Positions 40,168 to 48,588 of a stretch of 64,000 nucleotides of DNA are shown piece after piece. Location: assembly GCF_000001735.4 (NCBI RefSeq), contig NC_003070.9, positions 5,022,001 to 5,086,000 of the forward strand. The letters are read 5' to 3'. Position 1 is the stretch's first letter, and the number at the start of each line of letters is the position of its first letter. The notes beneath the pieces were generated by a model. The model ran no database searches. It saw only the letters and a list, made by a program, of their open reading frames with translations, and had not been told where the DNA came from. A program made the position numbers and the translations under genes. Source of the stretch: Arabidopsis thaliana. Taxonomy: Eukaryota > Streptophyta > Magnoliopsida > Brassicales > Brassicaceae.

Positions 40168-42697
40168 CTAATTGCTCTGTTTACCGTTACTGCCATCGCA
40201 TTCCCCTTCACCAAATCCGTTACGAGCTTCTTCTTTCGCCTTCAAATCTAATTTTCCTTCTGTTCCGTTGCTGTTGTCAGCCAGTTCTTGATTTGAACCG
40301 GGTGGGAGGAACACACCAGTGCCTGGGATGGGCATTCGAGGTTGTGGTGCTGTCTGGTGTCGTGGATGAGGTGGCAGCAGTGGCCAGACAGGCGGCCCGG
40401 TTGGTACACCACCTGGGAACGGCATTGGAGAGGCAAGTGGAGGAGAAGGAGGGATGAAAATCGGTTGAACAGCTCCGTTTGGTGGGCGGTGAGACGGAGT
40501 GGGCAAGACACCAGTGGACGGGATAACAACAGGGTAGTGTTTAGGTGGGCCGGTTGGGTGACGGATGTGCTGATTTGGCGATCTGCTCGGCGGTGGTCCC
40601 CAGTTAGAGTTTCTCGGTTTAGATTTGATGAAGCTAATGAGTATCCGTTGCTTTCGGGTTGCGTGAATTGCATACTTAGCAAGATTTGCGGATTTGCCTT
40701 CCACCAAAAGAACCGATCTGTTCAAAGTTCAAAGTACCAAATATAATTGATGATAAAAGGATTGAAAGATCTTGATTTTACAGAATAAGTGATATGGATC
40801 GGTTACCCGGGAGTGAGAGACAGCTTGAGAGAGCCTTTGTAGTCGCCGGGATTTTCAGAGACAATGACTCTTCCAAATGTATAATCACATTCAGACAAGG
40901 ACAAGACACTGATGGGTCGTCCAAACCAGGGAACAAACATATGAGGCTGCGAGTGATCTCCCTATGGTTCACAATAACAGAGAAGACACAAGAAAACTTC
41001 TACTTTGTTAAGAAAACAGAAACAGATAGTTTTAGGGGTTGCAAAGAATTTAGCAATCAGTTTAACCTCGCTGAAGAAATCAATGATGCATGCGTCTGGT
41101 TTCACAGGTATGATTTGCTTTGAGACCAAACGTTCAATGATGTCTGAAAGAGCTGATGGGATTGGCTCTATTCTTCGATCTGCATAAAGCCCATATCTCA
41201 TGTTAACCAATACACAGAAATTATAAGTAAATAACATTTTAAAGGACTTGCCTTTGATACTATCATCATCAGGCGGCGTATCAGCTATAGGAAGACCGAG
41301 TTGGATCATCTCACGTCCATGTCCTCTATTTGGCCGTTTATAACCCACATATGCCTCACCTGTTTCCCATTAACCAAGGGTTTAATACCTGACTAAAACA
41401 AGTTAAATCATTATTGTAGGGCAAACAAGATTCTTACTTTGAAGTTGACCTCTTCTTCCAGCAAGTCTCAGATTGGTTACAAGAGAAACGAGTTGAGAAA
41501 CTTCGTTTGCGTCAAGCATTTTGTCGTATAGCTTCAATCCTTCGACAACATTAACCTACTCAACAAAACTAAGGAATTAGGTGTCGTAGGCATAAACTCT
41601 AAACAGATATATAAAAGAAAACCAACTCACCATTTTTGCATCATACATCTCTTGAACCACAAAAGTCTTTGCCATGCTTGCAGGACACTCTTTATCGTTC
41701 TCCTCCTGCTTTTGCTCAGAAATGAGACTGTTATCTGAAAGCAAGAAGCAACACATAATCAGAACATTTCAACAAAGTCTAATATCAGGTGTAAAACCGA
41801 GAAGTCAGGTCTTCCAAAGTACCTTTAGAACCCGAGTTACACTTATGGTTCTTCACTATCTCCTCTTGAGTTTCAGATTCTTCCAATTTTTTCTCAACTT
41901 TACTATCACTCCTCGGTTTCTCGCTACCATCTATCCCACAAACAAACAAAAAACTTACATTTTCACTAAAGCAGAGAGTCTAGAGACTAAACCACAGATT
42001 AAACCCAAATCTTCCACTCTCATCATGTTCAGCAACATACAATGAACTTTCTCAGAAACAATTGCAGATAGGATTTCACAACAAACAAGTTTACTTTCCT
42101 TACAAGCAAGCAAAGCATTGAAGCCAAAACAAAGACAATTTGATTACCTCTCTTCTCTTCTGCAACAGACAATGCCTTAACATCACTTGCCAACTTAGCT
42201 TCCTCCCGATGCTCAACACGATCACTGTTAACGCCATTGAAATTATGCCCATTTCTCGCCATCGAATCAGCTCCTCTGTAACCCCCACCACCACCATGAT
42301 GCTTGTTAAACCCAGGCCCTGATCTCCTTGCTCCAAATTTCCCAACTTGATCAGAATTGTAATGCCTTTGAGGTGGCATTTGCTGTTGCCTTTTCCAAGC
42401 AATCTGCTGAAGATTGTAAGAAACATCTGCAACTGGGAAAAACTGCTGCATAGTAAGCACTTGAGACCAGGCTAAGCGACGATGATGAATGCTTCCGATC
42501 ACGGATTCGTACTCGTTGTGATCCCCAACCGCTTGTAGATGCTGACAAAGCGAATCGATGATCGCGTTAGCCGCAGCGAACTCCGCACGAAGCCAGGAGA
42601 TAAACCCATCTCGCTCGTCTGGGATCCAATTTGCCGGAGGAGGAAACTGCAATTTCTCAGACGGAGTAGTAACATTTCCAGGTGGTGGCATTGCCAT
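40168..42697 (-). CDS. ALKBH10-like AlkB-fold protein with Pro-rich tail, probable pseudoenzyme
   Basis: Eight exons (42697-42148, 41930-41823, 41734-41631, 41555-41438, 41359-41252, 41179-41067, 40961-40807, 40717-40168) give 601 aa; AT1G14710 is usually labelled hydroxyproline-rich glycoprotein. The N-terminus (WIPDERDGFISWLRAEFAAA, NEYESVIGSIHHRR, QQIAWKRQQ) and the core (YDKMLDANEVSQLVSLV, AYVGYKRPNRGHGREMIQLG) match plant ALKBH9/10 m6A RNA demethylases. In ALKBH10B, as I recall, PPHLEQP supplies two iron ligands; here it reads VPWFGRP. The distal His (AKH in ALKBH9B) is Tyr (AKYAI), while the 2OG-binding Arg (QRILISF) remains. Catalysis is therefore unlikely. The last about 140 residues are Pro-rich. 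The intron at 41251 uses a GC donor. RNA binding without demethylation is a reasonable hypothesis. Confidence 0.9.
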
Positions 42698-43106
42698 TTT
42701 CGTGGCAACAATTAAGAACAAACAAATAAAGCAAATATCTTTATATAAAAACTGTTCCTTTTTTTGCTTCTCTCTTTATCAAACACAAGTCATAGCTTTC
42801 TTCAAACAGATCTGCAGAATCAAGAGTAAAGATCAGATTTTTAACTCGATTTCAACGAGATCATACACTAGAACTTGGGAATTAACGGAATTCAGATAAA
42901 ACCCACGAAGAAATGAGGTAAATTTCAGATGGAAACAGTAAAACCCAGAACGAAATTAGAGAAGCAATCACCAGAAATGTGAAAGATAACAGATCTGGCA
43001 AATAGAGAAACTCGTCTTCAACGTGAAGCTGAGTGAAATAAAGAGAGCTGAGAGTAATGTATAAACTAAGGGAAGGGAAGCTTCGTAAAAGGCAAAGACA
43101 AGAGAT

Positions 43107-43135
43107 GGAGAGAGAGAGAGAGAGAGAGGGAGAGA
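43107..43135. repeat. GA microsatellite in leader/promoter of ALKBH10-like gene
   Basis: An almost perfect (GA)n tract with two GGG-type interruptions, just outside the presumed leader. GA tracts are BPC binding sites and recur near several genes in this window. Confidence 0.85.
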
Positions 43136-46579: not shown

Positions 46580-46603
46580 AAGAGAGAGAGAGAGAGAGAG
46601 AGG
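46580..46603. repeat. GA microsatellite upstream of XTH28
   Basis: An (AG)n tract about 115 bases upstream of the XTH28 start codon, probably in or near the leader. It is a candidate GAGA-factor site. Confidence 0.9.
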
Positions 46604-46784
46604 ATAGTGAAAGAAATAGTATGAGTATGAATATGAGGCAGAGTACTTCTGGCTATGGTTGGTTTATACTTTTAATCTTCATAAATATGTCAGTTTGTTT
46701 TTTCCATAATTACTTTTATTTATTTATTGCATTGGACCAGTAAAAGATCAAAAGGCTATGCTGTAACTTTTTTTTCAAGAGATT

Positions 46785-46921
46785 CTAATTTGCAATTAGA
46801 CTGATGGAATCTTAAACTAGGATTATTATTCTATTTTACATGTTTTAAAGATATACTAATTTGCAATTAGACTGATGGAATATCTTAAACTTGGATTCTT
46901 TTTCCATTTTACATGTTTTAA
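46785..46921. repeat. 71-bp tandem duplication
   Basis: CTAATTTGCAATTAGACTGATGGAAT...TTACATGTTTTAAA occurs at 46785 and again at 46856 with a few substitutions and small indels. It is a simple local duplication containing the palindromic core CTAATTTGCAATTAG. Confidence 0.85.
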
Positions 46922-48588
46922 AAGAAAACCATGGCATATCGACTGATAGCTAAGGTTATTACAATTTTGTTAGCATATACTACAAAATTTACCGCATTGA
47001 AGGATCAGATCTTTTTTTTTTTTTTCTACTAAGGATCAGATCTTTATTAGTGGGAAAAGGGGTCCTTTTATATTTGGACGATCAGATCTTTTTTTTTCTT
47101 AAAGATATTAAAGACAGGGGAGAAAAAAACAAGAGTAGCAATAAAGCATAGGGTGCTTTGCTGCTTACACATGTGTCCCGACAAATAGTCACAGGTAGAG
47201 TCACTAACACTACAATCTTTTTTCTTTTCAGACAAAAAGAAAAAAAAACTACTATCTATACAGATATAAGTTTACAAGCTCTTTAAAACAAAATAAGTTT
47301 CAATCATTGTAACATTTCATGTAGGGATTTTTAAAAAAATTGATTCAAATCCGTTTGAAATTGTAAAAGGAAAAAAGAAAAAAAAAATCTTATCAATTGA
47401 AGTATTCTTATAAAAGAATCATAAAACAAAATTGTTTTAGCTGATCAAAATACATATCTAAATCGAAGAAATTTATTTACATATGCAAGTGTGGATAGAT
47501 ATGGTGAGTTGGGGACACACGGGTACATTTTAAGAAAAAGTGAAATCATTGAGTATGAAAAACAACAACAAGTTGTGTCGAAGCTTTATATGTAGAGGAA
47601 ATATTAAAATAAAATTAAAAAAGAAAATAAAAGTGATGTAGCCGTTACCTGCTCCATTTGCCGTGACATTTTGATGATACATTTCTCAAATCTTATTGTC
47701 ATCAAGTGATCATAAATCATAATTCAGGGATTTGCCTTTACTAAACAAATGACCCGCGATAAAACTAGATTCACGTGCAGAAGAAACCCATCACCAACAA
47801 AGATTTAAACGTTGCTCCGACACGTGAGGCGGTGAGGGTAGCATCATCGAACGAGTGGTTAGGACTTAGGCTGTAACGTTTGACACCACGTAGATGTGTC
47901 AATGAATGCCCGATAGGTGCCGGCCAGTTGACAAAACGGAGTCGTAACTCGTAACGTTAATGACTTAATGTAATGCAACTTTAATAAAGTAACTATGAAC
48001 ACCTAATCCCTGCAAAAGCTACAACAAGTGAGTCGGTGAACTGGAGGTATTTAAAGCATATATATTCATGATTTTACAATTTCGTACTATTTAACGTAGC
48101 ATGAAGACTCTTTTATTTTTCGTTGAAATATCATGAAATTTTGTCTGTAGTCTGTCAGGACAATTACTGCACAAAATATCATTAATGGATTCATATTAAA
48201 AATTTAGGTTATTCAATCAAAATTCACGAGCTTATTCTTGTCTCTTGGTAAGACTTAAGAGCGTCTCAAGTCTCAACATTCCATAAGATTCTCTGAGCAA
48301 TGTCTCGTACAGTTGCTTGTTTAATATTTAGGCATAAATCATATCTATATATTACTCTTAACTTAAGCCGACATATTAACTTGATTATCAGGGATTATTA
48401 ACAATTAGTTGTCACAGTCCCAACTAAAACTTTGATGTAAGAGACCCGATTAAGTGATTAAATAAAAAGATCCTCCAAACTCTTACTAAAAAAAAAAAAA
48501 AAAAAAAAAAGAGTAACTTTGTATGAACTATGAATGATACATATCATACATTACATGAATTTGACTACTTTTGTGAATGGCCTGTGAG

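Follow-up and report, generated by a model that had tools for sequence, protein, structure and literature searches.

The closest described systems to the protein considered here are human ALKBH5 and the plant ALKBH9 and ALKBH10 proteins. ALKBH5 is represented by solved structures (e.g. PDB 7v4g, 4nrm and 4o61) and its HxD...H ligands are given as H204, D206 and H266 (PMC6112310). The Asn of the NxY motif is named as stabilising 2-oxoglutarate (2OG) (PMC8287571), and elsewhere the cofactor pocket is given as N-Y-R-R (PMC8868631). The three Arabidopsis ALKBH9 proteins contain a canonical NxY, HxD and distal His. ALKBH10B is reported to be an m6A demethylase (cited in PMC11332222).

The Arabidopsis gene AT1G14710 is counted as an ALKBH in gene surveys of potato and wheat, is used as the ALKBH10B query in one paper and is entered under ALKBH10B in another. 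The cotton locus Gbar_D02G014700 and the potato StALKBH10C are both assigned to AT1G14710, and a poplar gene is called ALKBH10C. The poplar paper describes an Fe2+-binding domain in all PagALKBHs, and the potato paper describes the relevant domains as conserved in most members, with a few that differ. AT1G14710 is absent from a 2012 table of 13 Arabidopsis homologues (PMC3265494) and is not among the five ALKBH5 homologues of a 2024 rice paper (PMC11332222). In one accession list At1g14710 is printed for SID2, apparently a typing error (PMC4028246).

Gene model and placement in the ALKBH10 group

The window is the whole 64,000-nucleotide stretch of Arabidopsis thaliana DNA that was analysed, and all features of the gene given below lie on its minus strand. 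Splice sites and an open frame define a coding region at 40168..42697 with 8 coding exons: exons 1–4 at 42697..42148, 41930..41823, 41734..41631 and 41555..41438, and exons 5–8 at 41359..41252, 41179..41067, 40961..40807 and 40717..40168. The spliced model has 601 codons and a stop, with the frame open throughout. Its introns have GT-AG ends with the single exception of a GC donor (GCAAGTCC, 41244..41251) in the intron after exon 5, while the introns of the ALKBH paralogues as modelled are GT-AG without exception. Exon 7 (GDHSQPHMFVPWFGRPISVLSLSECDYTFGR...) is exactly the interval 40807..40961 in which a preliminary description had located an AlkB-fold protein with all of its iron ligands replaced; the position of the distal His and the 2OG Arg, which also formed part of that description, lie outside it, in exon 8.

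We take the gene to be AT1G14710 from its position and from the two genes that flank it, one purple-acid-phosphatase-like and the other XTH-like, and we presume this to be the locus that goes under the name ALKBH10C in a few papers and is called a “hydroxyproline-rich glycoprotein” in others. Residues 527–534 of the 601-residue model read PPVWPLLP, which fits the type of hydroxyproline-rich motif printed for At1g14710 (PP followed by two units, each of two hydrophobic residues and a proline; PMC4441748) and gives independent agreement with this identity. GA tracts at 43105–43135 and 46580–46603 are presumed to lie in the 5' leader or promoter of the two minus-strand genes, and a tandem repeat (46772–46922, period 73, 2.1 copies, 88% matches) lies upstream of the XTH-like minus-strand gene.

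Five paralogues were identified by searching the same genome, and their AlkB-like regions were spliced by protein-to-genome alignment. They are named here ALKBH10B (AT4G02940), 10A (AT2G48080), 9B, 9C and 9A; the AT1G14710 product is referred to below as 10C. Exon 1 matched 10B with an E-value of 2.1e-18 and the AlkB-like exons matched 9B, 10B and 10A with 1.9e-12, 3.7e-6 and 1.7e-4, and because of these values the homology is judged to be beyond chance. Across the AlkB-like region 10C is identical to 10B at 84/217 positions (39%) and to 10A at 78/207 (38%), compared with 33–36% to the ALKBH9s (9B 78/215, 9C 75/215, 9A 70/209); 10A and 10B are identical to each other at 145/209. Features that 10C has in common with ALKBH9A, 9B and 9C are LSEC and the AK ahead of the distal ligand.

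The N-terminal domain (residues 23–106, 42380..42631, with an EFAAANAIID core) is closer to 10A and 10B than the AlkB region is, at 45–46% identity (39/84 to 10A and 38/84 to 10B) against 38–39%. A search of the same genome with this domain at E-values up to 10 gave three matches, 10A, 10B and AT1G14710 itself, so that 10A and 10B are the sole other carriers found in the Arabidopsis genome and no ALKBH9 gene was recovered. Both have the same order of domains as 10C. The part of the linker that follows at 42239..42337 (GARRSGPGFNKHHGGGGGYRG...) is rich in Gly and Arg, and the net charge of the linker is +4 over residues 108–183 and then −6 over residues 184–252. This differs from the linker of 10B, which is acidic (−18 over 116 residues). 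The AlkB-like double-stranded beta-helix region occupies residues from about 254 to 450, encoded by exons 4–8 (40624..41555), and the proline-rich tail includes the motif GTGVFLP (40303..40323). These seven residues recur in the 10A and 10B tails, which are otherwise divergent, and GTGVFLP is possibly a docking motif. In a hydropathy scan of the first 60 residues the most hydrophobic 12-residue window (mean 1.46) starts at residue 40, which is inside the N-domain. A reading as a cell-wall hydroxyproline-rich glycoprotein was set aside.

The AlkB regions of the three ALKBH10 genes each have five introns, with exon sizes of 118/108/113/155 in 10C, 118/123/116/155 in 10B and 118/102/110/155 in 10A. 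In an unrooted LG+G4 tree of seven sequences (three ALKBH10s, three ALKBH9s and an ALKBH5 fragment) the ALKBH10s stand apart with 97% ultrafast bootstrap. Within this tree 10A and 10B are joined at 98%, and 10C would thus have split off before those two parted. As judged from its sequence, the AT1G14710 product belongs to the plant ALKBH10 group, because the N-domain, the exon and intron layout, the GTGVFLP tail and the grouping in the tree were all found.

Against Pfam 2OG-FeII_Oxy_2 (PF13532, cut-off 31.2 bits) the whole 10C protein scores 24.9 bits with an E-value of 2.8e-5. When domains are compared with domains 10C scores 27.2 bits, 10A 22.4, 10B 18.1 and 9B 47.8, with only 9B above the cut-off, and by this score the predicted fold signal of 10C is at least as strong as those of 10A and 10B, to which it is most closely related. 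The isolated domains of 10A (29.8 bits) and 10B (26.2 bits) pass the cut-off of 23 for PF03171 (2OG-Fe(II) family), while the 10C protein gave no match to this profile at E-values up to 10. Searched at full length with E-values up to 1, 10B gave no hit to a 2OG family. The link to human ALKBH5 runs through 9B (E 2.9e-15) and 10B (E 1.8e-4, best chain); 10C alone, searched against solved structures at E-values up to 10, retrieved no ALKBH5 chain. A match to the structure of a TFIID subunit at an E-value of 2.3 involves a low-complexity stretch only and was set aside as chance.

The iron and 2OG sites and their register

The motif that reads PPHLEQP in 10B and PPHVDQP in 10A reads VPWFGRP in 10C, and the segment of the distal ligand, ARHVM in 10B and AKHCV in 10A, reads AKYAI. 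In this motif register W379 (40926..40928) replaces His366 of 10B, G381 (40920..40922) replaces Glu368 of 10B or the Asp of 10A, and Y434 (40672..40674, exon 8) replaces a distal His that is present in all five paralogues. The Arg that binds 2OG, R443 of QRILISF (40645..40647, exon 8), is the same in 6/6 proteins, and the flanks PISVLSLSEC and FGR are found in exon 7. Comparison with the five spliced paralogues therefore bears out the preliminary description in its reading of VPWFGRP in place of PPHLEQP, of the distal His to Tyr change and of the retained Arg and fold-defining flanks, and many other fold residues also persist.

A further loss was missing from that description. In the NxY/NxF motif that contacts 2OG, the Asn found in 5/5 paralogues is Asp in 10C (D363, 41079..41081). 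The site reads D363-F-F365, and at its third place the ALKBH9s have Tyr while 10A and 10B have Phe. As the iron ligands are lost and this Asn is now Asp363, the binding of 2OG by 10C appears doubtful.

How many ligands have been replaced depends on the register in which 10C is aligned. Between the Asn of NxY and the next RP or QP the ALKBH9s and ALKBH10s are of equal length, and when this segment is aligned without gaps the HxD columns contain F and K in 10A and 10B. In 10C the first iron ligand column of the ALKBH9s is then occupied by H374 (40941..40943) and the Asp column, which is D in 9A, 9B and 9C, by F376 (40935..40937). One His is left in this register, so that two of three ligands would be replaced and not all three; the earlier statement that all three had gone holds for the motif register (W379/G381/Y434). 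The preference for one register over the other can be expressed as the score of a free alignment minus that of an alignment forced to pair the motifs. Against the three ALKBH9s this difference is 0 for 10A, 2 for 10B and 26 for 10C, while against the ALKBH5 fragment it is 13, 24 and 17 respectively. In the latter alignment the two HxD places are occupied by F and D in 10A, F and K in 10B, and H370 and Q372 in 10C. A profile alignment that included ALKBH5 also put H374 of 10C at the first ligand.

The preliminary description had named the placement of other residues in the metal site, such as the HSQPH stretch that contains H370 and H374, as an outcome that would speak against it. This was half borne out: the column of the first ligand is taken by H374 when 10C is aligned with the ALKBH9s and by H370 when it is aligned with ALKBH5 alone, with no carboxylate to accompany either. 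An active or Zn-bound enzyme of altered chemistry, in which H370 and H374 together with H437 serve as substitute ligands, would draw on these placements, on the position of H437 three residues past Y434 and on the retention of R443. We regard such an enzyme as very unlikely, however, since the column two residues past the first ligand holds no acidic residue in any register (F376, Q372 or G381), 10A likewise has His at the H370 position, which is therefore not peculiar to 10C, and the NxY Asn has gone. The HxG/A pattern is that of the halogenase type, which would need HxG; 10C has WxG, HxF or HxQ, and an HxG-type halogenase was set aside.

Across every register seen, the sequence of 10C provides neither a carboxylate ligand nor the distal His, and at most one ligand His. 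The facial triad HxD/E...H is thus incomplete whether it is read as W379/G381/Y434 or as H374/F376/Y434, and of the HxD...H of ALKBH5 at most one His is kept. These replacements make it very probable that 10C has lost dioxygenase activity.

The same alignments raise the question of whether the correct ligands are being compared at all. If PPHLE were not the iron site in the ALKBH10 group, 10A and 10B would be as irregular as 10C. A phmmer alignment places the HLE of 10B on the HIFE loop of ALKBH5, before the RPI strand, and the profile alignment that includes ALKBH5 adopts the ungapped register for 10A and 10B, so that in both the F and K of 10B fall at HxD and its HLE on that loop. In addition, the two registers of 10A and 10B against the ALKBH9s differ by only 0–2 score units. 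Against this, the profile alignment made without ALKBH5, with the ALKBH9s alone, pairs PPHID with PPHLE; PPH-x-D/E and the distal His are both kept in 10A and 10B and both lost in 10C only. The 10A and 10B domains also pass the PF03171 cut-off where 10C has no match, although these matches are reported without an alignment and do not fix the register. A home-made profile from PF03171 loci of the same genome (9/13 loci, as passed by a motif filter) paired the PHVD of 10A with the AHTD of these ordinary plant 2OG oxygenases, but its score of 1.2 bits lacks significance. With 10B and 10C this nine-locus profile did not align usefully, and it was too weak to bear on the register.

Experimental work on 10B also speaks against a mistaken comparison. 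In our 10B model of 569 residues the motif is numbered H366-L-E368, and in 2017 Duan et al. reportedly identified H366 and E368 as the catalytic pair of ALKBH10B; an H366/E368 mutant is reported to be inactive. Together with the reported demethylase activity of 10B, this leaves the comparison of wrong ligands, in our estimate, a decidedly unlikely explanation. The PPH-x-D/E of 10A and 10B lies five residues past the HxD columns, directly ahead of the next strand. The appearance of an ALKBH10 metal site is uncertain, because 10A and 10B fit the HxD register of ALKBH5 and the ALKBH9s poorly.

Retention of the gene

The loss of ligands could also mean that the gene is itself on the way to being lost, with catalysis decayed and the protein functionless. 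Columns that are invariant in four paralogues are changed more often in 10C than in its relatives (21/62 compared with 10/62 for 10B, and 18/60 compared with 8/60 for 10A), a comparison biased in favour of 10A and 10B because each four-paralogue set contains the sister of one of them. The reading frame, however, has stayed open over 601 codons despite synonymous differences close to saturation (pS 0.72 to 10B and 0.78 to 10A), while in neutral simulations at 0.2, 0.5 and 1.0 substitutions per site the frame stayed open in 0/200 runs each. All introns retain GT-AG or GC-AG ends, and Tajima-type relative rate comparisons of 10C with 10A or 10B found no difference in 6/6 cases (p 0.27–0.89). Branch lengths in the LG+G4 tree are about 0.76 for 10C and 0.54+0.22 for 10B.

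Outside the gene model, the AT1G14710.2 protein was quantified by mass spectrometry in a paper that calls its function unknown (PMC11546460), and the naming of a 10C gene in the potato and poplar papers and the assignment of the cotton locus to AT1G14710 also count against gene loss. A pseudogene was set aside on the open frame, the intact intron ends and the detected protein, and we consider a functionless gene in the course of decay to be highly improbable. Nothing in the gene as modelled points to decay: the frame is open, the relative rates are equal and the N-domain and GTGVFLP are kept. Scans for orthologues in viral contigs (with the AlkB-region and the N-domain alignments), prokaryotic genome contigs (with the N-domain alignment) and plasmids (with the exon-1 protein) gave none, a result that covers viruses, prokaryotes and plasmids and has no bearing on conservation among plants.

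The preliminary description had further proposed that catalysis was lost selectively from a conserved scaffold. The triad is incomplete, and the frame, the introns, the fold residues and the N-domain persist, so the loss of the catalytic site within a conserved scaffold stands. The word “selective” does not: of 52 columns that are invariant in the five paralogues 37 are kept and 15 are changed in 10C, and the change of 2/3 invariant cofactor columns is not significant by comparison (P = 0.20). Both of these cofactor changes are conservative (N to D and H to Y).

Possible roles of a probable pseudo-dioxygenase

On balance these features favour a reading in which the AT1G14710 product is a non-catalytic pseudo-dioxygenase of the ALKBH10 type that acts by binding. 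In such a protein the AlkB-type double-stranded beta-helix would have no functional Fe(II) site, and it would be combined with the N-domain, a linker that is in part Gly/Arg-rich and a proline-rich tail. With its ligands lost, 10C would not demethylate m6A, and would instead work through binding, as an adaptor or as a competitor or brake beside 10A and 10B. The N-domain and the GTGVFLP tail, common to 10A and 10B, could bring it to the same partners, while the linker or tail and the AlkB-like cleft could provide contact with RNA. The retention of the N-domain and the tail motif is the reason for proposing an adaptor, and a role as adaptor or competitor in the pathway of 10A and 10B is a tentative suggestion. 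The preliminary description had likewise suggested that the protein could bind m6A RNA or compete with active ALKBH9 or ALKBH10 proteins.

Alternatively, 10C might bind m6A RNA in the old active-site cleft as a reader or protector, without being a partner of 10A or 10B. This proposal stems mainly from the persistence of the fold, in which R443 and the LSEC and FGR strands remain, and the linker is partly Gly/Arg-rich. In ALKBH9B, RNA binding is ascribed to a disordered segment of the tail that carries an RGxxxRGG motif (PMC8287571), but the RG content of 10C is small and W379 may fill the cleft, and on the whole we think an m6A reader of this kind unlikely.

Returning to a pseudo-dioxygenase that acts by binding, the ALKBH10 group as a whole could be a set of erasers and a pseudo-eraser. 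The protein 10C would have lost its metal site before 10A and 10B split and been retained as a dedicated binding partner of ALKBH10-type demethylation or a brake on it; in 10A and 10B the HxD/E in use would lie five residues away from where it is in the ALKBH9s. We put this forward as a speculative scheme that is rather less than likely.

The gene is already known as a member of the ALKBH family, and the added observation appears to be the missing iron site. A limited search of the literature gave no passage that mentions a lost metal site in the AT1G14710 product. The alignments show that the register of the metal site in ALKBH10B merits a structure. If the reading proposed here is true, the annotation of AT1G14710 would be corrected, and among the proteins that gene-family papers count as ALKBHs plants would have a naturally occurring, catalytically dead relative of an m6A eraser. 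The protein would then provide a readily available means of testing whether ALKBH10 proteins bind as well as demethylate.
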